NCBI RefSeq assembly: GCF_017872975.1
Contig: NZ_JAGGJP010000002.1
Span: 186,001 to 250,000, forward strand
Source: Rubellimicrobium aerolatum
Lineage (GTDB): Bacteria > Pseudomonadota > Alphaproteobacteria > Rhodobacterales > Rhodobacteraceae
Length of the DNA stretch: 64,000 bases
Direction of reading: 5' to 3'
Position 1 is the stretch's first letter, and each line of letters begins with the position of its first letter. Under the pieces are notes generated by a model that saw nothing but the letters and a program-made list of their open reading frames with translations, ran no database searches and was not told the DNA's origin. Below are positions 12,243-63,387 of the stretch, piece after piece. A program made the translations under genes and the position numbers.

Positions 12243-12294
12243 TCTCGCCGCGGGCGCGAAGGGACTGGGCGGGTTCGCGCTGGACCGGAGGGCC

Positions 12295-12319: not shown

Positions 12320-12366
12320 GAACCCGGCCCGGACAGGGGCGCACGGCACCGGACGAAGGGGACAGC

Positions 12367-39438: not shown

Positions 39439-40800
39439 ATGCAGATCGCCCATTCCACCCGCAGGGCCCTCCTGGCCTCCACCCTCGCCCTCGGCCTCGG
39501 CGGCTGCGGGGTGAGCTATGTCAGCCCGCTCGTGAGAGATACCGCCTCCGACAACGTCGATGTCGTGGAGATCACGGGCCAGAGCATCGCCTTCGCCAAC
39601 AGCGCGCCCTACACGCCGCGCGGCCTGCCCGAGGTCTTCTCGCGCACCGCCGGCTCCGGCGGCGGCCTCCGCGGCGCGGGCGCGCTGCCCGAGGCCCCGG
39701 CCGTGCCGCAGGCGCAGCCCGGCCCTCTCGACCTGCGGCCCCCGCCGGAGACGACGCCCCCGACCTACCGGATCGGCGTGGGCGACGTGGTCCAGCTCGC
39801 CACCCGCGTCGCGCGCCCGACGGGCGAGGCGGCCCTGGGCGAGGCCCCGGCCGGAGAGTTGCGCCAGACCTACACCGTCCGCGACGACGGGGCCATCGCG
39901 ATCCCCGACGTGGGCGCCGTGGAGATCGGCGGCCTGACCATCGAGGAGGCCGAGCAGCGAGTGTTCGAGCGGTTCATCGAGACGGGGGCCGACCCCGACT
40001 TCAGCCTGGAGATCGCCGGGTTCAACTCGCAGGGGATCACGGTCGGCGGCGACGTGGCCGCGCCGACCCGGGTTCCCGTGACCCTGAACGTCCCCACGCT
40101 GGACGAGGCGCTGACGGCGGCGGGCGGCCTTCAGGTCACCACGCCCGAGTTCGCGTCGATCCGCGTCTATCGCGACGGCACGCTCTACCAGATCCCGCTG
40201 GCCGACTACGACCGCGACGGCCGGCTCCGCTCCATCCAGCTCCTTCCGGGCGATTCGGTGTTCGTGGACACCGCCTACGACCTCGACCGGGCGCTCGCCT
40301 ACTACACGCAGCAGATCAACGCCGCGAGCCTGCGCCGCACCGAGCGGACGGCCGCGCTGGAGGAGCTCCAGGCCGAGGTCGGGCTCCGCCGCGACGCCCT
40401 GGACGAGGAGCGCGCCCTGTTCCGGGCCCGCGACGAGCTGGGCGCTGTGCCCCGCGACTACGTGTATCTGACCGGCGAGGTGACGCAGCAGCGCCGCTAT
40501 GCGCTCCCCTTCGGGCAGCAGGCGACGCTGGCGGACGCGCTCTTCGACCAGGGCGGCTTCGAGACCGAGACGGGCAACCCGTCGCAGATCTACGTCCTGC
40601 GCGCCACGCCGGGCGAGGAGGACGTGACGGCCTGGCATCTCGACGCCCGCAGCGCCGCCAACCTGACGCTCGCCACCCGCTTCGAGCTGCGCCCGAACGA
40701 CATCGTCTTCATCGAGGAACAGCCGATCACCCGGTGGAACCGCGCCTTCCAGCAGTTCTTCCCAAGCCTGGTTACCACCGCCAGCAGCGCCGTGGACTGA
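39439..40800 (+). CDS. Polysaccharide export outer-membrane lipoprotein (Wza/OPX family)
   Basis: 453 residues. The N-terminus is a lipoprotein signal (STRRALLASTLALGLGGC, Cys23). A Pro/Gly-rich linker (residues 60-105) precedes the polysaccharide-export domain: YRIGVGDVVQLATRV, YTVRDDGAIAIPDVGAVEIGGLTIEEAEQ, then SLBB-like repeats (ITVGGDVAAPTRVPV, DYVYLTGEVTQQRRYAL). A coiled-coil-prone segment lies near 295-330. It forms the outer-membrane exit channel for the polysaccharide, working with the Wzc-like kinase encoded convergently at 40909. Confidence 0.93.
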   Translation: MQIAHSTRRALLASTLALGLGGCGVSYVSPLVRDTASDNVDVVEITGQSIAFANSAPYTPRGLPEVFSRTAGSGGGLRGAGALPEAPAVPQAQPGPLDLRPPPETTPPTYRIGVGDVVQLATRVARPTGEAALGEAPAGELRQTYTVRDDGAIAIPDVGAVEIGGLTIEEAEQRVFERFIETGADPDFSLEIAGFNSQGITVGGDVAAPTRVPVTLNVPTLDEALTAAGGLQVTTPEFASIRVYRDGTLYQIPLADYDRDGRLRSIQLLPGDSVFVDTAYDLDRALAYYTQQINAASLRRTERTAALEELQAEVGLRRDALDEERALFRARDELGAVPRDYVYLTGEVTQQRRYALPFGQQATLADALFDQGGFETETGNPSQIYVLRATPGEEDVTAWHLDARSAANLTLATRFELRPNDIVFIEEQPITRWNRAFQQFFPSLVTTASSAVD

Positions 40801-40908: not shown

Positions 40909-43134
40909 TCAGGCCTCGTAGTAGTCCCGCCCGTAATGGACCAGCGCGCCGTAGCGGTCGCCATAGCCGTAGCGCCGCATCCCCTTGGGATCGACCCGCG
41001 ACAGGACCAGCCCCGTCACCGGCACGTTGACCGAGCGGAACTGCCGCATCCCGTCCTCCACAAGCCCGCGCCCCGTGAAGTCCCAGCGGACCACGTAGAG
41101 CACTGCGTCGGCGGCCTGCCCGATCACGCGGGCGTCCGGCACGACCAGCACCGGCGGCGTGTCGATCACGACGTGGTCGTAGCGGTCGCGGGCCTCGTTC
41201 AGCATCCTCTGGAAGCCGTCGGACGAGAAGAAATCCGCCGCGTTCACCTCTGCGCGGCGCTCGCCCAGCAGCACGTCGATCCCGGCACCCTCGGGCCGCA
41301 GAACGGCGTCGGCGAGCCGTTCCCGCCCCGCCACGGCGGCGACGAGGCCGCCCCGGGCGAGATCCTGCCGGAAATAGGCCTGGAGCGTGCAGCGGCGGAT
41401 GTCGCCCTCCACCAGCAGCACGCGCTTGCCCAGGCCGCCCAGGTTCTGCGCCAGCGCGATGGCGAGCGTGGTCTTTCCTTCGTTGGGAACGGACGAGGTG
41501 ACCATGATCACCTGCGGCGGGCTGTCGATCCGCGACAGCAGCAGCGAGGTCCGCAGGTTGCGGATCGCCTCGGCGGCGGCCGAGGTCGGCTTGCTGGCCA
41601 GATAGGCGATGGTGTCCACCCGCGCCCGCGCGGGGATGCGCGGCACCTGCCCCAGGACCGTCCGCCCGGTGTGGCGTTCCAGCTCCTCGGCGCTGCGGAA
41701 CGTCTTCTGGAGCAGCTCGCGCCCGATGACGACCGCCGCCCCCAGGAGGAGCCCTATCATCAGCGACAACGCCAAGGCGCGGGCCGGGCGCGGCGCGATC
41801 TGCTCGCCCGGGATGGCCTCGGTCAGGATGCGGCTGTCGGCCTGATAGATGTCCTCCTGCACCGACGCCTCCTTGAGGCGGCTCAGGAAGGTCTCGTAGA
41901 GGACGCGCGTCGCCTCGGCCTCCTGCTGGAGCTGGAGCAGAGCCTGAAAATCGGCGGACTGGCCCTGGAACTGCGCGGACAGGTCGTCGGACTGCTGCTG
42001 CAGCTCCTCCGCCTGCTCCTGCCCCCGCTCGATCTCGGCTTCCGCCTGAAGGACCACCTGCGCGAATCGCCGGTCGAACCGCTCCCGCGCCTCGGGATCG
42101 GCGGGCGTGGCAGCCAGCGCCGCGGCGGCGGCGTCGAGCTGACCATCCTCGGCCGCCTCGGCCTTCGCCGCCACGTCGCCCGAAGACTCGGCCGCGCGCA
42201 GCGCCACCAGCCGCTCGCCCACCCGCTCGAGCCGCCCCCTCACCTCCTGGAGCTCGGCCCCGAGCTCGATCGACTGGATGTTGAGCGCCTCCAGGCTCTC
42301 GGCGCTGACCAGCGCGCTGCGGGCCCGAAGGTCGGCGATCTCGTTCTGGCGGCTGTCCAGCTCGGCCCGAAGGTCGCCCACGCGGCCCGAAAGCCAGGTC
42401 GCGGCGCGCTCGGTGGCCTCCACCTTGAGGCGGATCTGGTCGTCCCGGTAGAGCCGGGCGAGGCCGTTGGCCAGGAGCGCCGCCTTCTCGGGGTCCTCGC
42501 TGGTGGCCGAGATGGTGAAGACATAGGTGTCGTAGCTGCTCTCGGTCTCGATAGCGCCGCGCACCGCGTCGATCACGTCGCGCCGCTCCTCCTCGGGAGA
42601 GAGGGCCTCCTCCTCGGGATCGGCCCCGCCGGGCAGCCAGGACCGCACCAGCCCCCCGAGCCCGGCCAGGAGACCCGGCCGCGCCTCGGGGTCGGGCAGC
42701 GCGCCGTTGAACTCGGGGTCCCGCATCAGGCCTAGCCCGTCCACGAGCCGGCCGATCAGGTCGCCCGAGGTGATGATCGACATCTCGGTATTGATGCTGG
42801 CCTCGTCGCCCGTCAGGCCGCTGACCACCGCCTGAAGGTTCATCATGTCGGGCATGTCGATCTGCAAGGCCATCTCGGCCTCGGCGCGATAGACCGGGGT
42901 CACGCTCGCCACGAGTCTGTAGTAGCCCAACGCCGCGACCAGCGCAGCGCAAGCAAAGACGCTCAACTTGTTCCGCCAGACGGTCCCGGCAAGGGCGAGG
43001 ATGTCGATCTCCTCGTCATCCCCGGTCCGGGATGGCGCGGCATGGAGGTCTTGGGGCTGCACGGGCTTCTGCATCTGGGCGGTGTCTCGCGGCGCTGAGG
43101 TCCGGGCCCTCTTAGACCAGGATGGAAAGGCCAT
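40909..43134 (-). CDS. Polysaccharide chain-length determinant / tyrosine autokinase (Wzc-like BY-kinase)
   Basis: The start is uncertain between the ATG at 43134 (741 residues, used here) and the one at 43074 (721); neither has a strong ribosome site. A Wzz domain has the first membrane helix at LSVFACAALVAALGYY, a long periplasmic coiled coil (residues about 250-440, Gln/Glu/Ala-rich), and a second helix (ALALSLMIGLLLGAAVVI). The cytosolic BY-kinase has Walker A VPNEGKTTLA (about 545), VEGDIRR and Walker B VVIDTPPVL (about 655). The C-terminal cluster YGYGDRYGALVHYGRDYY holds six Tyr, the usual autophosphorylation sites. It controls polymer length and export together with the Wza-like protein. 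Confidence 0.93.
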   Translation of the reverse strand: MAFPSWSKRARTSAPRDTAQMQKPVQPQDLHAAPSRTGDDEEIDILALAGTVWRNKLSVFACAALVAALGYYRLVASVTPVYRAEAEMALQIDMPDMMNLQAVVSGLTGDEASINTEMSIITSGDLIGRLVDGLGLMRDPEFNGALPDPEARPGLLAGLGGLVRSWLPGGADPEEEALSPEEERRDVIDAVRGAIETESSYDTYVFTISATSEDPEKAALLANGLARLYRDDQIRLKVEATERAATWLSGRVGDLRAELDSRQNEIADLRARSALVSAESLEALNIQSIELGAELQEVRGRLERVGERLVALRAAESSGDVAAKAEAAEDGQLDAAAAALAATPADPEARERFDRRFAQVVLQAEAEIERGQEQAEELQQQSDDLSAQFQGQSADFQALLQLQQEAEATRVLYETFLSRLKEASVQEDIYQADSRILTEAIPGEQIAPRPARALALSLMIGLLLGAAVVIGRELLQKTFRSAEELERHTGRTVLGQVPRIPARARVDTIAYLASKPTSAAAEAIRNLRTSLLLSRIDSPPQVIMVTSSVPNEGKTTLAIALAQNLGGLGKRVLLVEGDIRRCTLQAYFRQDLARGGLVAAVAGRERLADAVLRPEGAGIDVLLGERRAEVNAADFFSSDGFQRMLNEARDRYDHVVIDTPPVLVVPDARVIGQAADAVLYVVRWDFTGRGLVEDGMRQFRSVNVPVTGLVLSRVDPKGMRRYGYGDRYGALVHYGRDYYEA

Positions 43135-43444: not shown

Positions 43445-44584
43445 ATGGCGTCCGGCGACGCCCTGGCCGACGACCTGCTGGCCGCCGGCCTGCGAGGACC
43501 GTGCTGCTGGCCGCCCGAGGCCGACCCCGGCCGCGTCGTGAGCCGCGCGCTCTTCCACGGCGTCGCGGGCCTCCTGGCGGGCCGGCTGTCCGGCTGGCCG
43601 CCCGAGGCCACCGCCGCCCTGCGCCGCACCGCGCTCGCGCAATCCATGTGGGAGATGCGCCACGGCCGGGTGCTCGCGGACCTGCTCGCCGCCTTGGACG
43701 CGGCGGGCGTGCGAGTCCTGCTCCTCAAGGGGACCGCGCTCGCCTACGACCTCTACGACCCGCCCGCCCAGCGGCCCCGGGGCGACAGCGACCTGCTCGT
43801 TCCGCCCGAGAACCTGGACGCGGCCCGGGCCGTGCTGGAGGCCCAGGGCTTCGCGCACTACTACGACGACCCCTCGGCCGAGGACGGGACCCGCCTCCAG
43901 GAAGCCTGGCGGCGGACCACTCCCGACGGGCTCCCGCACGAGATCGACCTCCACTGGCGGACCCTGAACGCCCGCGCCCTGATGCACCTGTTCCCCTTCG
44001 ACGCCGCCTGGGCGCGGGCGCGGCCGCTGCCCCGACTCGCGCCCCAGGCCCGGGGCCTGCCGCTTGACCTCGCGCTGCTCCTGGCCTGCGCGCATCGGGC
44101 GCAGCACCTGGTGAACCCCTATTTCGCGAACGGCCGGGCCTACCACGAAGGCGACCGGCTGATCTGGCTGCGGAACATCGACCTGATCGCCCGCGCCCTG
44201 GACGCCGAGGGCTGGGCGGCCTTCGAGGCGGCGACCTTGGAGGGTGGGCTCGCCCCGGTGGCGCTGGAGGGGCTCCGTTCCGCCGCCGCGCGGCTCGGGA
44301 CGCCGTTGCCCGAGGCCACGACGGCCCGGCTCGCGACCGCGCCGCGCGATACCCCGGCGGCACGTTATCTCCTCGGCGCGGCGCAGGCGGGGCGGGCGCT
44401 CCGGGACCTTCGGGCGGTGCCCGGCCTGGGCGGCAAGGCACGCTACCTCTGGCGCCGGGTGCTGCCGCCGGCGTCGTTCCTGCGGATGAAGTATCCCGAA
44501 CTGGCCGGGCGCCCGGTGCCGCTCCTGCATATGAAGCGGATCATGGACTTCCCGAAGCCGCGCCGGACCAGGGGCGCGGAGTGA
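43445..44584 (+). CDS. Lasso-cluster nucleotidyltransferase family protein (NTP_transf_5-like)
   Basis: The ATG at 43445 gives 379 residues. The domain resembles PF14907 nucleotidyltransferases: VRVLLLKGTALAYDLYDPP followed by RPRGDSDLLVPP with the Asp-x-Asp metal site (about residues 113-118), then EIDLHWRTLN. The C-terminal 200 residues are helical without clear motifs. This family recurs in lasso-peptide clusters of sphingomonads and relatives, where its role (possibly nucleotidyl transfer to the peptide) is unproven. The TGA overlaps the GTG of the ABC transporter by four bases, so it belongs to the operon. Confidence 0.85.
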   Translation: MASGDALADDLLAAGLRGPCCWPPEADPGRVVSRALFHGVAGLLAGRLSGWPPEATAALRRTALAQSMWEMRHGRVLADLLAALDAAGVRVLLLKGTALAYDLYDPPAQRPRGDSDLLVPPENLDAARAVLEAQGFAHYYDDPSAEDGTRLQEAWRRTTPDGLPHEIDLHWRTLNARALMHLFPFDAAWARARPLPRLAPQARGLPLDLALLLACAHRAQHLVNPYFANGRAYHEGDRLIWLRNIDLIARALDAEGWAAFEAATLEGGLAPVALEGLRSAAARLGTPLPEATTARLATAPRDTPAARYLLGAAQAGRALRDLRAVPGLGGKARYLWRRVLPPASFLRMKYPELAGRPVPLLHMKRIMDFPKPRRTRGAE

Positions 44585-46236
44585 CGCTCGCGCACCTTCT
44601 CGACCTTGCCCGGCCCCATCGCGCCGCGCTCCTGCTCATGGTCCTCCTGGGCACCGCCGAGACGGGGGCGCTGCTCGCGCTGCCGGCCCTGGGCGGCCGG
44701 CTCGCCGGGCATGTGCTCGACGCAGCAGGGGCCTCGCCCTTGCCGGCGGCGCTGCTCCTCGGGTTGGCCCTTGCCGGAGCGGCGGCGCTGCGGGCGCTGT
44801 CGGCGGTGGTCTCGGGCCGGACGGCGGCGGCGATCCTCGCGGGGCTCAGGACGCGGGTGCACGACCACCTCCAGAGCCTGCCGCTCGCCGTGCACCAGCG
44901 GCACGCCCAAGGCGATCTCCTAGCACTCGCCACCTTCGAGATCGCCCGGCTCGGCGACTTCCTGGCCGTGACCCTGGTCGGCCTGCCGGCGCAGCTCCTC
45001 ACCGCGCTCGGGGCCGTCGTCCTGATGGCCCGCATCGACCCGGGCCTCGCGCTGGCCGTGCCCTTGGCGGTGCCCGTGTTCTTCCTTGCGCTCCGGGTCG
45101 CGGGCCGCCGCCTGCGTGCCCTCGCCCAGCGGACCCAGGAGGCCGAGGCCGATCTCGTGGCCGCCGCCGCCGAGGACCTGGCCCTTCTCCCCGCGATCCG
45201 CTCCTTCGTCCGGGAGGACGCCGCCTCGGCGCGGTTCGCGCGGCGGGCCGAGCGGGTGCGCGAGCTGGAGGCGAGGGAGAACGACATCCAGGCCACCCTG
45301 TCGCCGCTGACGGGCCTTGTCGCCGGATTGGGCGCCGTCGCCCTCCTGGCGCTGTCGGGCCGGGGCCTGCGCGCCGGCACCACCTCGCCCGCCGAGATGG
45401 TGAGCCTGTTCCTCTACGCCGCGCTGCTCACCCGGCCGGTGGCCGACCTCGCGCTGGTCTACGGGCGCGTGCAGGCCGCGCGGGGGATCCTGGCCCGGCT
45501 CGGCGCCCTCCTCGACGAGGCGCCCGAGCCCGGCCACGACGCGCCCCTGCGGATGGCGCGCGCCCAAGGCGACATCGCCTTCGAGGATCTCCGCTTCGCC
45601 CATCCGGACCGCGAGGAGGCGCTGCGCGGCGTCGCCCTGTCGGTGCGGGCAGGCGAGACGCTGGCCCTGACCGGACCGAACGGCGCCGGCAAGAGCACGA
45701 TGATCGCGCTCCTGCTCCGCTTCATGGATCCCTCGGGCGGCGCCGTGCGCCTGGACGGGACCGACATCCGCGACATCCGGCTCGCAGACCTGCGGCGGCA
45801 GATCGGCTGGGTGCCGCAGTGCCCGCTTCTCCTCGACGCCAGCGTGCGCGACAACATCGCCTTCGGCCTGGAGGGCGCGACCGACGCGCAGGTCGAGCGG
45901 GCGGCCCGGCTGGCGCAGGCCCACGACATGATCCTGTCGCTGCCCCAGGGCTACGCCACCCGCATCGGCGAGAACGGCGTGCGCCTGTCAGGGGGCCAGG
46001 GCCAGCGGATCGCCCTCGCCCGCGCGCTGATCGCCGACCCGCCCGTGCTCGTGCTCGACGAGGCCACCTCGATGTTCGACCTAGACGCCGAAGCCGCCTT
46101 CGTCGCCGCCGCCGCCGCCGCCCTGCGGGACCGCACGGTGATCCTGGTCACCCACCGCCCGGCCATGCTGGCGCTGGCGGATCGGATCGTCACGCTGGAG
46201 GACGGCCGCATCGTGGCGCAGCGCGCGGCGGCATGA
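44581..46236 (+). CDS. Lasso-peptide ABC exporter (permease-ATPase fusion)
   Basis: GTG start overlapping the upstream stop; 551 residues. Six membrane helices occupy residues 15-300 (for example LLLMVLLGTAETGALLALPAL, ALLLGLALAGAAALRAL, LPAQLLTALGAVVLMA). The nucleotide-binding domain has Walker A GPNGAGKST (about 365), LSGGQGQR (about 470), Walker B VLVLDEATSMFD (about 489) and the switch His in VTHRPAM. It is a type-I exporter half-transporter that should act as a homodimer, exporting the mature lasso peptide and often giving self-immunity (D protein). The ATGA overlap joins it to the cyclase gene. Confidence 0.92.
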   Translation: MTLAHLLDLARPHRAALLLMVLLGTAETGALLALPALGGRLAGHVLDAAGASPLPAALLLGLALAGAAALRALSAVVSGRTAAAILAGLRTRVHDHLQSLPLAVHQRHAQGDLLALATFEIARLGDFLAVTLVGLPAQLLTALGAVVLMARIDPGLALAVPLAVPVFFLALRVAGRRLRALAQRTQEAEADLVAAAAEDLALLPAIRSFVREDAASARFARRAERVRELEARENDIQATLSPLTGLVAGLGAVALLALSGRGLRAGTTSPAEMVSLFLYAALLTRPVADLALVYGRVQAARGILARLGALLDEAPEPGHDAPLRMARAQGDIAFEDLRFAHPDREEALRGVALSVRAGETLALTGPNGAGKSTMIALLLRFMDPSGGAVRLDGTDIRDIRLADLRRQIGWVPQCPLLLDASVRDNIAFGLEGATDAQVERAARLAQAHDMILSLPQGYATRIGENGVRLSGGQGQRIALARALIADPPVLVLDEATSMFDLDAEAAFVAAAAAALRDRTVILVTHRPAMLALADRIVTLEDGRIVAQRAAA

Positions 46237-48128
46237 GCGGGATCTGCGGGCTCATGCGGCTCGACGGCGGGCCTGCCGAGGCGATCGGCGCGATGGCCGC
46301 CCCCTTGGAGCGGCGCGGCCCCGACGGCACCCGCCTCTGGGCCGACGGCTCCGTTGCCCTGGGCCAGACCCTGCTCGCGACCACGCCCGAGGCCTTGGTC
46401 GAGGCGCTGCCGCTGACCCATGCGGAGTCCGGCTGGACCATCACCGCCGACGCCCGTCTCGACAACCGCGAGGAGCTTCTGGCCGCGTTCGGGCTCGCCG
46501 GGCCGGGCCGGGTCATCGGCGACGGCGAGTTGATCCTGCGCGCATGGCTCGCCTGGGGCGAGGGATGCCTCCACCGCCTACTGGGCGATTTCGCCTTCCT
46601 CCTTTGGGATTCGCGCCAACGGCGGCTCTGGGCGGCGCGGGACCCGCTGGGGATGCGCGCCCTGGCCTACGCCCACGCGCCCGGCCGACTCCTCGCGCTC
46701 GCGACCGAGCCCCGGGCCGTCCTGGCCGCCCCCGGCGCGGCGCGCGGCATCGATTGGGCGCGGGTGGCGGACGTCCTCGACGGCCATCTGGAGGCCATCG
46801 ACCACGAGACGACGATCTTTCAGGGCGTCCAAAGGCTGCCCCCGGGCCATTGGCTCCGCGCCGACGCGGGTGGCGTGACGATCCGGCGCTACTGGACGCC
46901 GACGCCCGGTCCCCTCCTGCGCCTGCGCGGCCCCGATGACTACGCCGAAGCTTTCCGCGAGGTCTTCACCGAAGCCGTGCGCTGCCGCCTGCGCGCGGCG
47001 GGCCCGGTGGGCTCGATGCTGTCGGGCGGAATGGATTCGGGCTCCGTGGTGGCGGTCGCCTCGCGGCTCCTGGCGGCCGAGGGACGCGGGCCGCTCCCCA
47101 CCTTCTCCGTCGCTGGCCCCGACCCAGCGACCTGCGCCGAGAGCCGGGCCCTCCGCGCCAGCCTGACCTTGCCGAATCTCGACCCCCATGTCGTGGATCT
47201 CGGCGACCTGTCGGTCTGGGAGGACGACCTCCTTGCCGCCCTGGCCGGAATCGCCGACCCGTTCGACGGCCACATGAACCTGCCGCGCGCCGCCTATCTC
47301 GCCGCGCGGCGGGCCGGGGTGCGCGTCGTGCTCGACGGCGTGGCGGGCGACGTGGCGCTCCACTGCGGGCAGCGCATCGGGCACCTGATTCGCGGCGGTC
47401 GGCTCCTCGCGGCCTGGCGCGAGGTCCGGGGGACCGAACGGTTCTGGGGGGGCGAGATCCCGCGCCGGACCATCTTGGGCGACGCCCTCCGGCAGGCCGC
47501 CCCGGAGTCCGCGAGGGCGCTCGGCCGGCGGTGGCGGGGCGCCACGGCGCGGCGCCCGCGCTCCCCGATCCTGTCGGAGGCCCTGGCGCGCGAGGTGGAC
47601 ATCGACGCGCGAGTGGAACGCGACAGGCGGAACAACCGCCTGCCCACCGGCTCCGAGGCCCAGCAACGCGCGGCCCTTCTGGCCGGCCCCGCCCTCGCCA
47701 TCGGCCGCGAGCGCTACGACCACGTCGCCGGCGCCTTCGGGATCGAGCCGCGCGACCCGTTCATGGACCTCCGCGTGGTGGACTTCGCCCTGCGCTGCCC
47801 CGGCGAGCAGCTCATGTCGGACGGCTGGCCCAAGACGTTGCTGCGCCGCGCCATGGAAGGGCTCCTGCCCCCGGAGGTGATCTGGCGGCCCGGGCGGACC
47901 CATCTTGGAATGGACCTGAGCGGGGCCATCGTGGCCCGCCTGGGGCCATTGTCCACCATCCGAAACAGTCTGTCCCCGGACGCAGCGGAACTGCTGGCCG
48001 ACTGGACGGGGCTCCGGAATGGACAGCCCTTGCCCGACACATTAGGGGAAGAAACGTGTTTAGATTTTGTTAACCTTGTGCTCTGGCTTGGACAACCAAG
48101 CCTCGGGCCGATCCTTCAACCATCCTGA
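46233..48128 (+). CDS. Lasso-peptide cyclase, asparagine-synthase-like (C protein)
   Basis: 631 residues, ATG overlapping the transporter stop. The N-terminal glutaminase-like domain opens MSGICGLMRLDGG: the catalytic Cys2 of AsnB is Ser here, consistent with loss of glutaminase activity. LERRGPDG and ARDPLGMRAL are conserved. The synthetase domain carries the ATP pyrophosphatase loop LSGGMDSGSV (about 263) and LDGVAGDVALHCG. In lasso biosynthesis this protein adenylates the Asp/Glu side chain and closes the macrolactam. The last 30 codons (TTA, GAT, TTT, GTT, CTT) are AT-rich compared with the rest, just before the precursor gene. Context with B1, B2 and precursor makes a role in asparagine synthesis unlikely. 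Confidence 0.92.
   Translation: MSGICGLMRLDGGPAEAIGAMAAPLERRGPDGTRLWADGSVALGQTLLATTPEALVEALPLTHAESGWTITADARLDNREELLAAFGLAGPGRVIGDGELILRAWLAWGEGCLHRLLGDFAFLLWDSRQRRLWAARDPLGMRALAYAHAPGRLLALATEPRAVLAAPGAARGIDWARVADVLDGHLEAIDHETTIFQGVQRLPPGHWLRADAGGVTIRRYWTPTPGPLLRLRGPDDYAEAFREVFTEAVRCRLRAAGPVGSMLSGGMDSGSVVAVASRLLAAEGRGPLPTFSVAGPDPATCAESRALRASLTLPNLDPHVVDLGDLSVWEDDLLAALAGIADPFDGHMNLPRAAYLAARRAGVRVVLDGVAGDVALHCGQRIGHLIRGGRLLAAWREVRGTERFWGGEIPRRTILGDALRQAAPESARALGRRWRGATARRPRSPILSEALAREVDIDARVERDRRNNRLPTGSEAQQRAALLAGPALAIGRERYDHVAGAFGIEPRDPFMDLRVVDFALRCPGEQLMSDGWPKTLLRRAMEGLLPPEVIWRPGRTHLGMDLSGAIVARLGPLSTIRNSLSPDAAELLADWTGLRNGQPLPDTLGEETCLDFVNLVLWLGQPSLGPILQPS
48040..48100 (+). promoter_or_regulatory. 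AT-rich patch upstream of the lasso precursor, possible internal promoter
   Basis: Within the 3' end of the cyclase gene the sequence becomes AT-rich (ATTAGGGG, then AACGTGTTTAGATTTTGTTAACC) in an otherwise roughly 70% GC region. It ends about 45 bases before the precursor ATG. A dedicated promoter for a highly expressed precursor is plausible, but I cannot define -35 and -10 boxes; codon drift at the gene end is the alternative. Confidence 0.3.
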
Positions 48129-48142
48129 CCCAAGTGAGCCGA

Positions 48143-48295
48143 ATGAATACCCAAGACAAACCGCAAGCCTCCGCCCCGGCCGCCTACAGCGCCCCCAAGC
48201 TCACCGTCCACGGTAGCGTGGCCGAACTGACCGCCGCCGGCAGCAGCGGCCGGCCCGAAGCCGGCAGCCGGCGTCAGTCCCGCATCCGGGCCTGA
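48143..48295 (+). CDS. Lasso peptide precursor (A protein, 50 aa)
   Basis: The ATG at 48143 follows AAGTGAG and starts 14 bases after the cyclase stop. The leader contains the complete B1-recognition motif YxxPxLxxxGxxxxxT: Y15, P18, L20, G24, T30 (YSAPKLTVHGSVAELT). Lasso leaders keep Thr at the second-last position, so cleavage is expected after A31, leaving the core AGSSGRPEAGSRRQSRIRA (residues 32-50). Glu39 would be core position 8, giving an Ala1-Glu8 ring; paeninodin likewise starts with Ala-Gly. Cleavage one residue later would give a Gly1-Glu7 ring. The tail carries five Arg and no aromatic residue. The flanking cyclase, kinase, B1 and B2 genes support the call strongly; the core boundary is inference. 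Confidence 0.9.
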   Translation: MNTQDKPQASAPAAYSAPKLTVHGSVAELTAAGSSGRPEAGSRRQSRIRA

Positions 48296-48368
48296 TCCGG
48301 ACATGGCGGGGACATGCGCGCGCTCGCGCGCTCCCTGCCCTCCCATGGCCCGAGGTCCGCGCGCCTCG

Positions 48369-48391
48369 CGGGCCGGGCGCTGACCGGCCCG
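48369..48391 (+). terminator. Stem-loop between precursor and kinase genes
   Basis: CGGGCCGG (48369-48376) pairs with CCGGCCCG (48384-48391), an 8-bp perfect stem with a 7-base loop and no T-run. It is positioned like the partial terminators that follow many RiPP precursor genes and raise precursor mRNA over downstream enzymes. GCGCGC-GCTC-GCGCGC upstream (near 48314) is a second possible stem. Confidence 0.45.
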
Positions 48392-48411
48392 CAGGCGATG
48401 GCTCGTCGCTC

Positions 48412-49326
48412 TTGAACGGACCATGCTCACGTCCCGCCGGGACCCCCCTCGACGCCTTCGGCCTCGGCGGCTGGACCTTCGCAGTGGAGCCCGACGAGCT
48501 CATGCCGTCGGTGACCTGGACCTGGCGCGACCGGATCGGCACCGCCGCCGGCCGGCCCGACGGGATGCCCGGGCACCATGCGCTGCACGGCGAGGGAATC
48601 GGCTGCGCGCTGATCTCGATGGATGACCGCTCCGTGCGCCTCCGCGAACCGGAAGGCGCCGACGAGGCCACGGTCGCGCAATGGATCGCCGATCAGGCGG
48701 TGCCGCGTATCCTGGCGCACCTGGGCGAGTTCGTGGTCCATGCCGGCGCGGTGCAGGCCGGCGATGGACGTGTGGCGCTGTTCCTGGGCCCCACGGGTCG
48801 CGGCAAGTCCACCCTTACCGGCTTCCTCCACCGCGAGGGCTGGACGCTCCTCGGCGACGACGCGGCCCGGCTTTCCCTCCAGGACGGCCAAGCGGTCGCC
48901 GGCGCGCTATATCGGCGGCTCAAGCTTCTCCCGGACAGCTGGAACCGGCTCTTTCCCGAGCCCGGCACGCCCCCAATCCTGACGGGGCGCAAGGTCAGCG
49001 TGGACCTCGACGCGGTGCTCGATCCCGTTGCGCCGCGCCCCGTGGCCGCCATCTTCCGCATCGACATGCCGGGCGACACGCGGGAGCCGGTCGCGCACCG
49101 CCTGTCCGGAGCCGAGACCTGCATGGAACTGGTCCGGGAGAGTTTCGCCCTCGATCCCACCGACCGGGGGCGGGCCGCCCATCGCCTGCCCCTCGCCGCC
49201 GCCGTCGCTGCCGCCGCGCCAGGCTTCGCGCTCTCCTACCCGCGCGACTTCGCGCAACTCGGCCGGGTGCGCGATCTCGTCGCGGCGACGCTGGACCGGA
49301 CCGCACACGCGCGGCTTGGGCCCTAG
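48412..49326 (+). CDS. HPr kinase-like lasso-peptide kinase
   Basis: The best start is the TTG at 48412 (304 residues), which keeps the family-like LDAFGLGGWTFAVEPDELMPS; an in-frame GTG at 48484 would cut into it. The kinase core shows VVHAGAVQAGDGRVALFLGPTGRGKSTLT with the P-loop GPTGRGKS (about residues 126-133), then GWTLLGDDAARL, RRLKLLPDSW and RPVAAIFRIDMPG. HPrK-like proteins in lasso clusters such as paeninodin phosphorylate the precursor at its C-terminal Ser. Here the precursor ends in Ala, with Ser42 and Ser46 inside the core, so the target site is unclear. A 116-base gap with a hairpin separates it from the precursor. Confidence 0.85.
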   Translation: MNGPCSRPAGTPLDAFGLGGWTFAVEPDELMPSVTWTWRDRIGTAAGRPDGMPGHHALHGEGIGCALISMDDRSVRLREPEGADEATVAQWIADQAVPRILAHLGEFVVHAGAVQAGDGRVALFLGPTGRGKSTLTGFLHREGWTLLGDDAARLSLQDGQAVAGALYRRLKLLPDSWNRLFPEPGTPPILTGRKVSVDLDAVLDPVAPRPVAAIFRIDMPGDTREPVAHRLSGAETCMELVRESFALDPTDRGRAAHRLPLAAAVAAAAPGFALSYPRDFAQLGRVRDLVAATLDRTAHARLGP

Positions 49327-49378
49327 CAGGACCCAGGCCGCGCGCCGCCGCCCTCGATTACAGGACAAGCCCACGCCC

Positions 49379-49657
49379 ATGCTCGACCGGTTTCCCTCCG
49401 ACATCGCCCCCTCGCCCGAGGCCCTGGAAAGCCGCGTCGGCGAGGAGATGGTGCTCCTGCACCTGGGCAACGATACCTATTACGGCCTGGACGCCATGGG
49501 CACCCGGATCTGGACGCAGCTCAAGGCCGGCACGCCCCTTCCGGCGATCCGCGACCGCATCGCGGCCGAGCATGGATTGGACGCCCGAACCGTCGAAGCG
49601 GACATGGCGCCCTTCCTCGACGACCTGCTGAAGAACGAGCTGCTGGTCCATGGGTGA
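49379..49657 (+). CDS. Lasso-peptide leader-binding protein, PqqD-like (B1)
   Basis: 92 residues from the ATG at 49379. PqqD-fold features: VGEEMVLLHLGNDTYYGLDAMGTRIWTQL, with the Leu-Asn/Asp-x-Tyr-Gly-Leu-Asp strand pair typical of RiPP recognition elements, then the helical part with GTPLPAIRDRIAAEHGLD and FLDDLLKNELL. It binds the YxxPxLxxxGxxxxxT motif of the leader and presents it to the B2 protease. The gene lies 52 bases after the kinase and overlaps B2 by eight bases, indicating 1:1 coupled synthesis. Confidence 0.92.
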   Translation: MLDRFPSDIAPSPEALESRVGEEMVLLHLGNDTYYGLDAMGTRIWTQLKAGTPLPAIRDRIAAEHGLDARTVEADMAPFLDDLLKNELLVHG

Positions 49658-50084
49658 GGGAACCATCCGTCGCCTCGGCCCGCTTGCCTGGGCCGACCTC
49701 CTGCGGGCCGCGCTGGAGCTTGGGGCGGCCCGGATGCTCCTGCGGCGGCGCTCATGCCGCGACCTGATCCGGATGACCCGTGCCCGGACCCCGGCCCAGC
49801 CCATTCCCGAGACCCGCGCCACGCGGGTCGTCGAGAGGGTGGCCTTCGCCGTGCCCCGCGTCGCCGCCCGCGTGCCCTGGCGGGCCGACTGCCTCGTGCA
49901 GGCCCTCGCGGCCCAGTCCTGGCTGACCCGCGCCGGGGTGGAAAGCGAGCTTCGCATCGGCGCCCGGCAGGAGGATGCGACGGGGTTCGAGGCTCATGCC
50001 TGGCTGACCTGCGGTCCGCGCGTCGTGACCGGCGGCGGCGCTGGCGCCTTCGCTGTCCTTGTCGGGCCGGACACGCCCGTCTGA
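49650..50084 (+). CDS. Lasso-peptide leader protease, transglutaminase-like (B2)
   Basis: 144 residues. The family motif is present: VPWRADCLVQALAAQSWLTRAGVESELRIG, with catalytic Cys81, followed by FEAHAWLTCG with catalytic His116. The usual third residue, an Asp about a dozen residues later, is not obvious (RVVTGGGAGAF), as in some other proteobacterial B2 proteins I recall; this deserves a check. It cleaves the leader after the residue following the conserved Thr, in complex with B1. It is the last gene of the lasso operon; an exopolysaccharide sugar transferase gene follows after 185 bases. Confidence 0.9.
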   Translation: MGEGTIRRLGPLAWADLLRAALELGAARMLLRRRSCRDLIRMTRARTPAQPIPETRATRVVERVAFAVPRVAARVPWRADCLVQALAAQSWLTRAGVESELRIGARQEDATGFEAHAWLTCGPRVVTGGGAGAFAVLVGPDTPV

Positions 50085-50269: not shown

Positions 50270-50932
50270 ATGAGGGATGTCCCGACAAGCGCAGGGGCGG
50301 CCATGACAAGTCATGTCTTCGCGGTCGGAACGGGCGGCGCGTCCGCGATGGTCTACCGGGCGACGAAACGCCTGATCGACGTGGCGATCTCCCTGCTGCT
50401 CCTGCCGCCCCTCGCGGGCGTGGCGCTGGTGGCGCTCGCCCTGAATCCCCTGTTCAACCGGGGCAGCCTCTTCTTCGTGCAGGAGCGCATGGGCCTGAAC
50501 GGCCAGGGCTTCCGCGTCTACAAGTTCCGCACCATGGGGCCCGCCACGACGATCGCCCGCGGCCCCTTCGACGCGATCGACAGCGACCGGATCACGCCTC
50601 TGGGCCGGATCCTGCGCGAGAGCCGCCTAGACGAGCTGCCGCAGATCGTGAACGTCCTCAAGGGCGAGATGACCCTGGTCGGGCCCCGGCCGGACAACAT
50701 AGAGCACGCCCGGGTCTACGCCGAGAAGGTTCCCGGCTACCGGGAGCGTCATGCCGTCCGCCCCGGCATCAGCGGCTACGCCCAGACCGAGATCGGCTAC
50801 GTGGACAGCCTGGATGGCGTGCAGGCCAAGGTGGAGGCCGATCTCCATTACCTCCGCCACGCCTCGCTCCGCTTCGATCTCTGGATCGTCTGGCGGACCA
50901 TCGGGATCATGCTGGGGCGCAAGGGAAGCTGA
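50270..50932 (+). CDS. Undecaprenyl-phosphate sugar-phosphate transferase (initiating glycosyltransferase)
   Basis: 220 residues from the ATG at 50270; the internal ATG at 50303 has a better spaced GGGG and may be the real start. One membrane hairpin ([24 protein letters not shown]) is followed by the polyprenyl-P phosphotransferase signature: [57 protein letters not shown], and RPGISGYAQ. It lacks the long N-terminal multi-helix domain of WbaP/WcaJ, so it is the short, PglC-like form. It loads the first sugar phosphate onto undecaprenyl phosphate and starts the repeat unit for the polysaccharide. Confidence 0.92.
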
Positions 50933-57647: not shown

Positions 57648-58197
57648 TCTTTACGACGCGAGCGGATTCCAGCGCGGCGCGCCCCGCTGGAAGGAGGCGC
57701 TCTGGCTCGTGCTCGACGGGGCGCTGGTGTCGTCCTGGCTGCCCGGCTCGGGCTGGCGGACGCGCCTCCTGCGGCTCTTCGGCGCCCGCATCGGCGCGGG
57801 CGTCGTCATCAAGCCGGGCGTCCACGTCAAGTTTCCCTGGCGGCTGGCCATCGGCGCGCATTGCTGGATCGGTGAACGGGTCTGGATCGACAACCTCGCG
57901 CCCGTCATCATCGGCGACCACGCCTGCCTTTCGCAGGGGGCCTATCTCTGCACCGGCAGCCACGACTGGTCGCGCGAACGGTTCGACCTCGTGACGACGC
58001 CCATCGCCATCGGCGACCACGCCTGGATCTGCGCCGGGGCGAGCCTCGCGCCCGGCGCGGTCCTGGAGGAAGGCGCCGTCCTCGGCATGGCGAGCCTCGG
58101 GCGCGGCCGGCTTCCCGCCTGGACCCTGTCCGCCGGCGTCCCGGCCCGGCCGGTGTCGCCGCGCGTCCGTCCGTCCGCGCGGCAGGCCGGCCCCTAG
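57637..58197 (+). CDS. WcaF-type colanic acid acetyltransferase family
   Basis: The ATG at 57637 gives 186 residues. The N-terminus YDASGFQRGAPRWKEALWLVLDGALVSSWLPGSGWR is typical of WcaF-like proteins. The left-handed beta-helix hexapeptide repeats follow (IGAGVVIKPGVHVKFPWRLAIGAHCWIGERVWI, VIIGDHACLSQGAYLCTGSHDW), with the catalytic His in CTGSHDW. It probably O-acetylates a sugar of the polysaccharide repeat unit from acetyl-CoA. Its TAG lies in the CTAG shared with the convergent Wzy-like gene. Confidence 0.92.
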   Translation: MRLDLYDASGFQRGAPRWKEALWLVLDGALVSSWLPGSGWRTRLLRLFGARIGAGVVIKPGVHVKFPWRLAIGAHCWIGERVWIDNLAPVIIGDHACLSQGAYLCTGSHDWSRERFDLVTTPIAIGDHAWICAGASLAPGAVLEEGAVLGMASLGRGRLPAWTLSAGVPARPVSPRVRPSARQAGP

Positions 58198-59408
58198 GCC
58201 GCGCTGGCTCCCAGGACGGCCGGAGGTGGGGCGGTCGCGGACGGGACGGCCGCCGCCGCGCGCCGCGCCGAGGCCGCGAAGACCAGCGAGGGATAGATCA
58301 TCCACTCGCCCGCGCGCAGCCCGTACTGGAACAGCGAGATGAAGCCGAACAGGAACAGCATCAGCCCGATGAACTTGCGGAACAGGTTCGGCGTGGCGTC
58401 GTGGTAGCGGGCCATCGCGCCGAAGGCCACGTGGAACGCCCCGAAGACCACCGGGCCGAAGCCCAGCAGCTCCCCCATCCCGCCATAGGGCCGATACAGG
58501 TCCAGCCGCCACAGCATCGGGTCCACCGCGATGGGGTGCAGCGCGCCGGGGATCGGCGTGATGCTGTAGATCAGGTCCGCGAGGCCGAAGTCGAGCGGGA
58601 TCTGCTCGTAGACGGTGAACAGGTGCAGGTAGGAGAACTCGAACAGGTAGGACAGGTTGATCTCCCGCCACTGCGAGGCGATGAGCGTCGCCGTGGTCAG
58701 GAAGGCGTCGAGCGACTTGTCGGCCTCGCCCCGCCCGGTCATGGTCAGCACGAAGAAGAACACCGCCACCGCCAGGAACAGCGCCGCCGGGCCGACGCGC
58801 CGGCGCGCGACGAAGTGGATGGCGATGACCGCCGGCGGCAGCACGCCCGACCGCGAGGCGTCCACCCAGGCGAACAGGAGCCCGATGGCCAGCGCGACCG
58901 CCGCGCTCGCCACGCCCAGGCGGCGCACCGAGAGGTTGTAGGCCGTCAGCAGCGCGGCGGCGAGCACCAGGAACTGCGACGCCTTGGAGGCCAGGATGCG
59001 CGCGATGTAGCCCGGCCGGTTCTCCTGCAGGACCTCCCAGTCGAGGGCCACCTTGACGATGCAGTAGGCGAGGATGCCCACCAGCACGAGGAAGGCCAGC
59101 TCGGACTTGCCGCGCAGCCGGACGCGGGCCCCGCCCAGCACGATCCGCCGCCGCCGGAGGCGCAGGCGGCCGGTCGAGGCCAGGGCGGCCAGCGCGTAGC
59201 CCGCCCAGAGCGTCAGGAGCTGCAACGCGGGAATCCACCAGTAGGACCAGACCGTGCCGCAGTCGAAGGCGGTGGCGTAGTTGAAGTCCACGTTGTCCAG
59301 CTTCTCGCAGACCGCGCGGACCGCGCGCAGGTAGCTCACGGCGATGTAGCCGCCGATGGCCCAGAACACGAGCTTCAGGTCCGCCCTCGATCCCACCCCT
59401 GCCCGCAT
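58194..59408 (-). CDS. Multipass membrane protein, probable polysaccharide polymerase (Wzy-like)
   Basis: 404 residues with about ten membrane helices, beginning LKLVFWAIGGYIAVSYLRAV. A periplasmic loop with FNYATAFDCGTVWSYWW follows helix 1. The C-terminal half has a large loop (SQWREINLSYLFEFSYLHLFTVYEQIPLDFG) and PYGGMGELLGFGPVVFGAFHVAFGAMA, resembling oligosaccharide repeat-unit polymerases. Sequence conservation in Wzy is low, so the call rests on topology and position. It would polymerise flipped repeat units in the periplasm. It is transcribed opposite to the rest of the cluster, in line with the tailspike-like gene. Confidence 0.7.
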   Translation of the reverse strand: MRAGVGSRADLKLVFWAIGGYIAVSYLRAVRAVCEKLDNVDFNYATAFDCGTVWSYWWIPALQLLTLWAGYALAALASTGRLRLRRRRIVLGGARVRLRGKSELAFLVLVGILAYCIVKVALDWEVLQENRPGYIARILASKASQFLVLAAALLTAYNLSVRRLGVASAAVALAIGLLFAWVDASRSGVLPPAVIAIHFVARRRVGPAALFLAVAVFFFVLTMTGRGEADKSLDAFLTTATLIASQWREINLSYLFEFSYLHLFTVYEQIPLDFGLADLIYSITPIPGALHPIAVDPMLWRLDLYRPYGGMGELLGFGPVVFGAFHVAFGAMARYHDATPNLFRKFIGLMLFLFGFISLFQYGLRAGEWMIYPSLVFAASARRAAAAVPSATAPPPAVLGASAA

Positions 59409-59551
59409 CGTCCGTCCCCTGCCGACCGCAGGCCCTTAGCATGGGACAACCCCCCTGGCCACCGGTCCTCGCGGGTCTCCGGTCGGCCTGGGGCGCGCCG
59501 CCGCAGCCCGGATCGGGGGCGCGGCGGCGGCCGGGCGCGGCGGAGGTGCCG

Positions 59552-61435
59552 TCAGCGCGGCGCATCGCCGTAGCGCGGGTTGCGCTGGCTCAGGGGCACG
59601 ATCCGGGCGAGGCCGTGGTCGAGGCCGTTCCCCCAGGTGAAGGTGAGCGTCAGCTCGGCGGCGTTCTCGGCCTGGGTCGCGCCGGTGTCGGCTGTGCCCC
59701 AGTGCGCCGACACGAGGTCGGCGTTGACCGTCTCCAGCGCGCCGAAGGGCCCGCCATGCAGCTTGGTCCAGGCGACGCGGTTGCGCTTGACCCCGCCGCC
59801 GTCGATGTAGCCGTTGACCGTCACCGCGTAGACCGAGGAGCCGGCCCCGTCGTAGCCCGAGGAGGTCCCCTGCAACTGGAGCAGGAAGCTGACCGGCGTG
59901 GAGAAGGTCAGGTCGAGCCGCCCCGTCCGCAACCGGAAGCTCGCCTTCTTGCGGCCCGCCGTGGCGGTGTCGCCGGTGTCGAGGAACCCGTCCTCCAGCA
60001 GCCCCCGGAAGGTCCAGGGGTCGGGGTTGCGGATGGCGCCGCGCAGGGACTCGGAGGCGATGCGGTAGCTCGACACCTCCCCGGCGAGGAACTGGGCGGC
60101 GCGGTAGGTGGCGTCGTCCATGTCGATCACGAAGCCCAGGGGCGGCTCGGCCGAGAGGGAGGGGGCGCGGCTCACCAGCCGGGAATCGGGGTTGCCCAGC
60201 GCGTGGATGGAGTTGCCGGCGAAGCGGATCAGGCCCGGATACTGGAGGAGGTGGACGATGCCCGCCTCGCCGCCGGCCTCGAAGGGCGACGGGTGGTAGC
60301 CGACGATGTGGTTGTCCACGATCGAGATCGCCGGGGCGGTGCTGAACGCGGCGAGGTCGCGCGGGTAGTCGCAGACCACCAGCGGCGGGTTCGATCCCTC
60401 GTTGCTCACGCGGTTGCCGGACAGGACGACGCCGCGCGCGCTGTCGAGCACGGTGCCGCCCGCGCCGTTGTCGGTGGTCAGATACACGTAGGCCCGGCCC
60501 GTGCCGCCGTCGCCCGCCGGGATGAACATGGAATCGCGGATCGAGATGAGCGAGTTGGCGTGGATGAGCCGGGTCGTCTCGGTCATGATGCCGAGCCAGC
60601 ACCTCTCGATGTTGAGCTTGTCGGCGTAGCACCGCAGCAGTTGCCGGACGTGGTAGCGGAAGTCGCAGTCGAGCAGGCTGACCGTGGTCGAGCGGGAGTT
60701 GTCGTAGGTGCCGGTGTCGAGCCAGAGGTTCACCTCCTGCGCGCCGCAGCGCTCGAAGGTCCAGAGCGAGGAATCCTGGTTCGAGGTGGACAGCGCCAGC
60801 GCCGTCGCGAAGTTCTGCCACCAGATGCCCCGGCAGATGAGCCGGCGCACCTTGGTCCCCACCGCGAAGCCGTTGGCCCGCGTGCCCGCCCCGAAGAAGA
60901 TCGCCCGGTCGTCGCAGACGAGCGCCAGCGTGCGGACCTCCACGAGGTTGAGGTCGATGGGGGCGTCGATCAGGTAGCGGCCGGGCGCGACCTCGATGGC
61001 CGGGTAGCCCTCCACGAGGTCGCCCGAGCCGGGGGTGGCGTGGCTGGTGCCCATCGACACGGCGGCCACCACCGCCTTCTGGAGCGCCGCGGCGGCCGAG
61101 GCCGTCCCGGTCGGGTCGGCCCCGAAGGCGAGGAGCGGCAGGTTGCCCCGCGCGTTGCGCTGGACGTAGAGCCGGACCCCGCCGGCGGTGGCGAGGTGGT
61201 GGTCGGTCGCCCCGGCGGGGGCCACGGCGTAGGCGAGGCCCTGGCGGGCCACGCGGATCGTGTCGCCCGCCGCCACGGCGCGCGGGCCCGCGCCATAGGC
61301 CAGGGTCGCGTCGGCGAGGAGCGCGGCGAGCGAGGGCAGCGTGCGCGCGGCCCGCAGCTCGGCCAGGGCGGCGTTGACGCGGGCCGAGAGGTCGGCGCCG
61401 GTGAAGGTGGGAAGCGGCAGGTCGGCGAGGGTCAT
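59552..61435 (-). CDS. Tailspike-like parallel beta-helix protein (pectate-lyase-3-like)
   Basis: 627 residues, ATG at 61435. Residues 1-95 form a small N-terminal domain (TLADLPLPTFTGADLSARVNAALAEL...). The pectate-lyase-3 entry motif LLAFGADPTGTASAAAALQKAV follows at about 100. A long right-handed beta-helix comes next (for example CRGIWWQNFATALALSTSNQDSSLWTFERC, LLDCDFRYHV, VLSGNRVSNEG, ISIVDNHIVGYHPSPF). A C-terminal beta-rich domain ends FTWGNGLDHGLARIVPLSQRNPRYGD. No signal peptide is visible. Such proteins include phage tailspikes and polysaccharide lyases or depolymerases. Located inside the polysaccharide locus, it may trim or release the polymer; a domesticated phage depolymerase is plausible. 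The catalytic residues cannot be assigned. Confidence 0.78.
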   Translation of the reverse strand: MTLADLPLPTFTGADLSARVNAALAELRAARTLPSLAALLADATLAYGAGPRAVAAGDTIRVARQGLAYAVAPAGATDHHLATAGGVRLYVQRNARGNLPLLAFGADPTGTASAAAALQKAVVAAVSMGTSHATPGSGDLVEGYPAIEVAPGRYLIDAPIDLNLVEVRTLALVCDDRAIFFGAGTRANGFAVGTKVRRLICRGIWWQNFATALALSTSNQDSSLWTFERCGAQEVNLWLDTGTYDNSRSTTVSLLDCDFRYHVRQLLRCYADKLNIERCWLGIMTETTRLIHANSLISIRDSMFIPAGDGGTGRAYVYLTTDNGAGGTVLDSARGVVLSGNRVSNEGSNPPLVVCDYPRDLAAFSTAPAISIVDNHIVGYHPSPFEAGGEAGIVHLLQYPGLIRFAGNSIHALGNPDSRLVSRAPSLSAEPPLGFVIDMDDATYRAAQFLAGEVSSYRIASESLRGAIRNPDPWTFRGLLEDGFLDTGDTATAGRKKASFRLRTGRLDLTFSTPVSFLLQLQGTSSGYDGAGSSVYAVTVNGYIDGGGVKRNRVAWTKLHGGPFGALETVNADLVSAHWGTADTGATQAENAAELTLTFTWGNGLDHGLARIVPLSQRNPRYGDAPR

Positions 61436-63250: not shown

Positions 63251-63387
63251 CGGGGTGTCCCCTGTCCGTGGTCGCGGGTGGCCTAGCACCGCCGCGCGCG
63301 GGGCCGCAAGGCGGGGCGCCATGGCCTTGCGGTTGACAGGCGCGGCGCGGGGGCGACCTTTGACGCCTGGGCGACGGGAGGAACGGG

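Follow-up and report, generated by a model that had tools for sequence, protein, structure and literature searches.

Kinase-linked lasso peptide clusters are already known, and the version found in Rubellimicrobium aerolatum departs from the best-described ones. The bsf cluster of Bradymonas sediminis (BsfA/BsfK), in the account given in PMC10368454, resembles our locus in having genes A, B1, B2, C, D, K and N, a predicted eight-residue ring and a Ser at core position 3 without a C-terminal Ser, but it carries Ile(-2), Gly1 and Asp8 where our precursor has Thr(-2), Ala1-Gly2 and Glu8. The pseudomycoidin (psm) cluster likewise pairs a kinase and a nucleotidyltransferase (NTase) with lasso genes, and PsmN attaches hexoses to the phosphorylated lasso peptide; phosphate and hexoses are described there on a C-terminal Ser, which our core lacks (PMC8498205, PMC9266682). 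Clusters for linear polyphosphorylated peptides (LPP) in Bacilli share with our locus an RRE, an HprK-like kinase acting on Ser3, an N gene and a capsule-locus setting but, as portrayed in PMC13381572, yield a linear product by signal-peptidase-like leader cleavage and have no cyclase. LPP membership was rejected because both a cyclase and B2 are present in our cassette. The paeninodin-like group, including the Ser-ending proteobacterial loci L050, L051, L052, L056, L061, L062, L063, L087, L088 and L092, likewise has the YxxPxL leader and Thr(-2), with an HPrK-like kinase in those Ser-ending loci examined and an exopolysaccharide (EPS) neighbourhood in several; unlike ours, 10/10 of these precursors terminate in Phe-Ser and have Gly1 and Asp9.

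The locus studied here lies in a 64,000-nucleotide stretch of R. aerolatum contig NZ_JAGGJP010000002.1 (the window). All seven cassette ORFs, in the order N-D-C-A-K-B1-B2, occupy the plus strand between 43445 and 50084, at the positions given in an earlier sequence-only reading, and are separated by -4, -4, 14, 116, 53 and -8 nt. N (43445..44584) is an NTase-like candidate tailoring enzyme (PF14907, 114 bits; cut-off 31.2), and D (44581..46236) is an ABC exporter with membrane and ATPase domains (PF00664, PF00005). C (46233..48128), an asparagine-synthase-like lasso cyclase, matches PF00733 at 138 bits and NF033535 at 431 bits, short of the latter model's cut-off of 525; a sequence search against solved structures placed a hydroxyamidotransferase at the top and asparagine synthetases next. 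B1 (49379..49657), a predicted PqqD-like leader-binding protein, exceeds the PF05402 cut-off (50.6 bits; cut-off 23.4) and misses that of NF033536 (43.7; cut-off 80), and B2 (49650..50084), a predicted transglutaminase-like leader peptidase, exceeds both NF033537 (75 bits; cut-off 33) and PF13471 (84.8 bits; cut-off 26). The components that a lasso peptide requires, B1 (RRE), B2 (peptidase) and C, are each above cut-off, with PF05402, NF033537 and PF00733, respectively. These profile matches uphold the earlier claim of a complete lasso cluster made up of NTase, exporter, cyclase, precursor, kinase, B1 and B2, as well as that of two tailoring candidates, N by PF14907 and K by its HPrK-like fold. 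We conclude that the cassette very probably comprises lasso peptide biosynthesis genes.

The 50-residue precursor A (48143..48295) scores above cut-off with NF033528 (34.2; cut-off 33) and with the leader model NF033521 (28.1; cut-off 19). The former, lasso_cyano, was compared by model name only and was presumably drawn up for cyanobacterial lasso peptides; it matches 8 of the 14 relatives at E 0.01. NF033521 matches the 3.76-Mb genome once, at the window precursor, and none of 14 control genomes, so the match exceeds chance. An in-frame GTG at 48134 offers an alternative start. The leader ends at Ala(-1), and the predicted core is AGSSGRPEAGSRRQSRIRA.

The precursor proved to be conserved in relatives that keep the enzymes, its type occurring at 12 of the 15 related cyclase loci. 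Of the other three, L048 and L013 are truncated where the contig stops next to the cyclase, and at L047 the cyclase has neither a precursor nor a kinase, B1 or B2 as neighbour. Duplicate rows had been removed: L014 repeats the precursor and the cyclase match of L007, and L074, L089 and L091 occupy the positions of L051, L050 and L052. The 12 loci hold 14 precursors that have the leader in common, with Tyr, Pro, Leu, Gly and Thr invariant in all aligned sequences, and diverge in their tails. Core position 2 is Gly in 14/14, and position 3 is Ser (10) or Thr (4), the only one of the first 12 core positions at which every core has Ser or Thr. Glu8 is found in 12 cores, including that of the window, and Glu9 in the remaining two, both inside the span of positions 7-9 where a lasso core is expected to carry Asp or Glu. 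None of the precursors ends in Ser, the window core ending in Ala. Both elements of the bsf-type pattern, Ser/Thr3 and the missing C-terminal Ser, are present in 14/14. None of 20000 within-core shuffles reached the counts for Gly2, Ser/Thr3, Glu8 and no terminal Ser, in a test that ignores shared ancestry.

The kinase gene (48412..49326) most likely starts at TTG 48412, because the N-terminus predicted from it aligns with that of R. rubrum (Rubellimicrobium). Its sequence matches are weak (TIGR04352, 36.7 against a cut-off of 200; no Pfam family above cut-off; one marginal PEPCK match among solved structures). Structurally, its predicted model (pLDDT 82, from 8 sequences) resembles both PEPCK (E 5e-8) and an HPr kinase, 3tqf (E 1e-5), and H110, K132, D149 and D150 are invariant in 8/8; a His, Lys, Asp, Asp set is described for lasso kinases in PMC9266682. 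In a tree of 20 grouped kinases, from which the PadeK, ThcoK and SyanK sequences are absent, the kinases of these loci together with that of L049 lie on one side of a supported branch (95/89) and eight kinases found beside Ser-ending precursors lie opposite; the two groups share the HPrK fold but form separate clades. BsfK belongs to neither, sitting by itself on a long branch. Among these 20 grouped kinases, clade went with whether the precursor ends in Ser, which may help to predict the kinase site. L049, whose kinase falls in the same clade as that of the cassette, has Met at core position 3 and no C-terminal Ser, which counts against Ser3 as the general target of this clade.

The sequence-only reading had proposed a member of the paeninodin-like group. 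This placement fails because 0/14 precursors end in Ser and the kinases form a clade apart (95/89), and we reject it. Phosphorylation of a C-terminal Ser would agree with the presence of a kinase gene and with the occurrence of N in the pseudomycoidin cluster as described in PMC8498205 and PMC9266682, but with a core ending in Ala, no relative ending in Ser and a kinase clade different from that beside Ser-ending precursors, it is extremely improbable. The Ser3-acting kinases BsfK and LppK, the latter described in PMC13381572 as phosphorylating Ser3 of a linear peptide, fit the cassette better than paeninodin-like kinases do. Core Ser3 is, on balance, the favoured phosphosite, although with BsfK outside the clade this assignment is carried over by analogy from its reported activity on core Ser3 and Thr3, aided by B1 (PMC10368454). 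Ser/Thr3 alone is not diagnostic because 6 of 10 Ser-ending precursors share it (L050, L052, L056, L087, L088 and L092). Speaking against Ser3, a Thr3 variant was not used by LppK in the experiments described in PMC13381572, yet 4/14 cores have Thr3.

For N, residues K95, G96, R112, G113, D114 and D116 are invariant in 6/6 aligned relatives; the gene was not found near L008. Its fold is NTase-type by weak matches only, with MenT1 (E 4e-4) and ANT(2'') at the top and FKRP weak (E 0.05), and a sequence search against solved structures gave no match. Since the fold matches are mixed, the fold does not reveal the transferred group.

In the scheme we propose, B1 would bind the leader via Y(-17)xxP(-14)xL(-12) and K, aided by B1, would phosphorylate core Ser3. 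B2, whose catalytic Cys and His are retained in 11/11 proteins of the group, would cleave between leader residue -1 and core residue 1, with Thr at position -2, and C, with its SGGxDS motif present in 15/15 cyclases, would link Ala1 to Glu8, producing an eight-residue ring around a basic tail, with ring closure and threading both predicted. N may modify the Ser3 phosphate, perhaps with a sugar or nucleotide part, a tentative assignment, and D would export the finished peptide. We give this whole reading, an accessory cassette producing one lasso peptide, a probability of roughly 0.55.

Several other products were weighed against it. If the leader were cut one residue later, with Thr at -3, Gly would become residue 1 and Glu residue 7, forming a seven-residue ring. 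The invariance of this Gly, preceded by a residue that varies (A/S/N/G) across the 14 cores, favours such a cut. Rings of this size are reportedly found in xanthomonins, but other, non-Gly first residues are likewise said to occur in lasso peptides, namely the caulonodins. Because the later cut would also violate the Tyr(-17) to Thr(-2) spacing, which is fixed in lasso leaders according to PMC10368454, we regard the smaller ring as unlikely. As 12/14 cores lack any aromatic residue (F, W or Y), they are without the bulky plug usual in lasso peptides, which would suit an unthreaded phosphopeptide, branched-cyclic or linear, comparable to the LPP peptides made by Bacilli; kinase, uncharacterised NTase, RRE and capsule-locus setting are shared with the LPP clusters that PMC13381572 describes. 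Those clusters, however, are described as missing a cyclase, whereas all 12 precursor-bearing loci encode one with intact SGGxDS and all 14 cores have Glu at position 8 or 9, which makes such a product distinctly unlikely. Decay of the cluster, with the product no longer made, is suggested by scattering or loss in one relative (L047), but here 7/7 frames are open, spacing is tight or overlapping and catalytic motifs are retained in the cassette enzymes, so that we consider it highly improbable.

The cassette looks like a separable block within EPS genes. Upstream lie genes for a Wza-like polysaccharide export protein (39439..40800, plus strand; PF02563) and a Wzz/Wzc-like chain-length protein with an ATPase domain (40909..43074, minus strand; PF02706, PF13807, PF13614), and downstream one for an initiating bacterial sugar transferase (50270..50932, plus strand; PF02397, 178 bits); ManC, a PF13440 flippase, a GT4 glycosyltransferase and a hexapeptide transferase were also identified by profile. 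The previously noted placement between the Wzc-like gene and the sugar transferase holds, with the correction that the Wzc-like gene is divergent, on the opposite strand. The Wzx/Wzy assignment stands in part: flippase, Wza, Wzz/Wzc and PF02397 are present, while for Wzy the ORFs tested at 58401-63286 (plus) and 58197-59408 (minus) had no Pfam match. Recent transfer was rejected as a reading of base composition, with a cassette GC of 0.745 versus 0.725 for the window and no signal. A hairpin 3' of the precursor (48290-48420) gave z = -1.38, with 20/200 shuffles folding equally well, and we make no claim for it.

In the host family, an EPS hallmark gene accompanies 9 of 14 regions with B2 plus cyclase (6.3-20 kb) versus 1 of 36 control regions (each 20 kb long, placed at round coordinates on large contigs from 10 genomes without genome-by-genome matching); 25 of 28 B2 places were taken in, G154, G191 and G372 being left out (G191 and G372 below the model cut-off). 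A tie between kinase-bearing clusters and capsule loci is described for Bacilli in PMC13381572. Both observations argue against a passive setting, in which cassettes gather in polysaccharide loci because these are hot spots of turnover, the peptide itself being unrelated to EPS, yet both are compatible with a hot spot too. For the passive setting speak a congener (G001) with Wza, Wzc, sugar transferase and GMD but no cassette, a related cassette that is plasmid-borne, and the lack of EPS markers within the flanking sequence covered for L007, L008 and L009. We give the passive setting close to an even chance and hold a functional tie between peptide and EPS to be doubtful. LicD-type enzymes are phosphosugar transferases, and a FKRP/LicD-like N could place an EPS-derived sugar-phosphate or glycan on the Ser3 phosphate, giving a lasso-glycan conjugate that caps or is anchored to EPS; this is very unlikely.

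Why kinase-bearing lasso clusters occupy polysaccharide loci is a question raised for Bacilli in PMC13381572. The same EPS pattern is now seen in an alphaproteobacterial family, here with the cassette intact, with a phosphosite that is probably a different one and with a congener that has the EPS core but lacks the cassette, a set that opens direct tests of kinase action on Ser3, of transfer by the NTase and of EPS change upon cassette loss. In open-access literature, with most subscription papers outside it and absence correspondingly weak, the polysaccharide link was found stated for Bacilli only; open-access full texts, with the same weakness, yielded no report of a lasso peptide with Rubellimicrobium.

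Distribution searches for the cyclase scored the first few candidates per genome. At E 1e-80, matches were found in at least 1 of 385 genomes of the class, this being the host's own, and in at least 4 of 398 genomes of the phylum, comprising the host's own and three at 38% identity. At E 1e-60, at least 2 of 298 genomes of the Sphingomonas alba family matched, one of them the Sphingomonas alba genome itself. Among plasmids, the B2 query gave no match, and the cyclase query matched one record, Antarctobacter pSMS3-2.

The cassette consists of seven plus-strand genes (43445-50084) in the order N (nucleotidyltransferase), D (ABC exporter), C (lasso cyclase), A (precursor), K (HPrK-like kinase), B1 (leader-binding) and B2 (leader peptidase); some neighbours overlap, and the gaps between the others stay under 120 nt. 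It is flanked by a minus-strand Wzc-like gene on one side and a PF02397 sugar transferase gene on the other. Only the window precursor matched the NF033521 leader model in the source genome; 14 control genomes yielded no match. The sequence-only reading had proposed a complete lasso-peptide cluster, and every lasso feature that could be tested was found; judged by its sequence, the cluster is real and complete.

Related cyclases were found at nine named loci (Rubellimicrobium rubrum, Pseudomonas sp. N040, two Sphingomonas, Tateyamaria, and MAGs comprising two Rhodobacteraceae and two near-identical Lysobacterales), and a further one lies on an Antarctobacter plasmid. The closest named relative found was R. 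rubrum, whose cyclase is 61% identical. Counting the source genome, matches occurred in 4 of 8 genomes of the genus; across the family, 78 of 394 genomes matched at E 0.001, four of them, own included, below 1e-100. To see whether relatives that keep the enzymes also keep the precursor, 15 related cyclase loci were compared: 12 carry the precursor, and in two (L048 and L013) a contig end adjoins the cyclase. The remaining locus, L047, has N, D and C, with A, K, B1 and B2 absent nearby; the sole B2 match in that genome is on a separate contig that lacks a cyclase. One precursor type accounts for 14 precursors over 12 loci: the window, L006 (R. rubrum), L007, L008 (two), L009, L010, L011, L012, L044 (two), L045, L046 and L060 (the Antarctobacter plasmid). 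K accompanies all 12, and N, D, B1 and B2 accompany 11 each, N being absent from L008 and D from L009; L007 has a B1-like stretch of only 42 residues, and its whole genome gave no B2 match. The paired precursors are at 10439 and 10628 in L044, where they follow the kinase and not the cyclase, and at 10082 and 11335 in L008. On plasmid pSMS3-2 (L060) this cassette type is plasmid-borne with glycosyltransferase genes around it; the plasmid's gene table, which is incomplete, lists nothing annotated at the precursor's position.

The predicted window core is AGSSGRPEAGSRRQSRIRA, its boundary set by the usual spacing of Tyr-17, Pro-14, Leu-12 and Thr-2, as set out in PMC10368454. Mean pairwise identity of the 14 precursors is 51% over 17 leader residues and 37% over core residues 1-8. 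Position 1 holds A, S, N or G and position 2 holds Gly throughout; Ser (10) or Thr (4) occupies position 3, and residue 8 is Glu in 12, the remaining two carrying Glu9. These counts at positions 2, 3 and 8 were reached in none of 20000 within-core shuffles, which ignore shared ancestry (maxima: Gly 10, Ser/Thr 10, Asp/Glu 7). Arg, Lys or His occupies the penultimate position in 13 of 14 cores, and 12 have no aromatic residue. Exactly two tail cysteines occur in five, so that a tail disulfide would be possible there. In L008 (11572-12795) and L009 (11003-12172) the kinase and B1 are separated by a methyltransferase-like gene whose product shows PRMT-type similarity at its C-terminus; it may act as an additional tailoring enzyme on the basic tail.

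Placement in the kinase-associated, paeninodin-like group, as had been suggested, is not borne out at the C-terminus: that group has a C-terminal Ser, whereas none of the 14 cores ends in Ser. At 10 other loci the precursor carries Gly1 and Asp9 and ends in Phe-Ser. Ser/Thr3 occurs in 6 of these 10 as well, so that residue alone cannot separate the types; it is the C-terminus that separates them. When 28 kinases were placed in a tree, the 12 window-type kinases and that of L049 fell on one side of a branch (95/89) and the eight beside Ser-ending precursors on the other, and the Ser/non-Ser label requires one change in 200 of 200 bootstrap trees. L049 is an exception, with a window-clade kinase yet a precursor with Met3 and no C-terminal Ser; in its genome (L075/L049, G224) the core beside this kinase begins GTMGTASD. 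BsfK, the kinase of the Bradymonas sediminis bsf cluster, forms a long branch outside both groups.

With help from B1, BsfK phosphorylates Ser3 of the lasso core, and it also accepts Thr3 (PMC10368454); LppK phosphorylates Ser3 of a linear peptide and not a Thr3 variant (PMC13381572); and PsmN, according to reviews, attaches one or two hexoses, directly or indirectly, to a lasso peptide that carries a phosphate (PMC9266682, PMC8498205). The predicted structure of K is a PEPCK/HPrK fold, and that of N a nucleotidyltransferase fold, nothing more specific. The window peptide would be phosphorylated on the ring and the phosphate then modified further, which fits Ser3, the lack of a C-terminal Ser and the N gene. 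We consider a lasso peptide predicted to be phosphorylated on Ser3 somewhat favoured (probability about 0.55, lowered from 0.6 because Ser/Thr3 is common in Ser-ending precursors too). Among described systems, bsf comes closest in kind. The novelty lies in finding Thr(-2) and X1-Gly2-Ser/Thr3-Glu8 together with a separate kinase clade, N and repeated occurrence in EPS loci of Rhodobacteraceae-type genomes.

As for the proposed Wzx/Wzy exopolysaccharide setting, EPS genes were confirmed around the cassette, but Wzy was not. The B2 model NF033537 matched in 27 of 394 family genomes (25 over cut-off; 28 places). Among 25 B2 places examined, in fetched windows of up to about 10 kb per side, 12 had a Wza-, Wzc- or PF02397-like gene nearby. 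Where a cyclase was also present, an EPS marker occurred in 9 of 14 places, the window itself included, versus 1 of 36 control windows (one-sided Fisher p = 7e-6). Such a marker accompanies five of the 12 window-type loci (window, L006, L044, L045, L046); two (L010, L060) lie among glycosyltransferase or sugar-nucleotide genes, none was found in the available flanks of three (L007, L008, L009), and the contigs of L011 and L012 are too short to judge. Only one of four cyclase-less congeners, G001, has a Wzc-like gene at E 1e-40; its Wza, Wzc, sugar transferase and GMD genes are grouped, uninterrupted by a cassette. R. rubrum has an intact sugar transferase gene (4399-5016 of L006) to the left of N and a truncated remnant of one (12245-12454) to the right of B2. 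From these two arrangements we conclude that the cassette can be separated from the EPS locus. For Bacilli, co-localisation with capsule loci has already been published (PMC13381572). At L086 (G123:C24), an EPS locus with Wza-, Wzc- and sugar-transferase-like genes contains a B2-like gene and gave no cyclase match. In another EPS locus (L079, genome G127), near B2 and cyclase homologues, a small ORF at 10681 encodes a YxxPxL-like leader and ends in a Lys/Met-rich stretch; it is possibly another kind of precursor.
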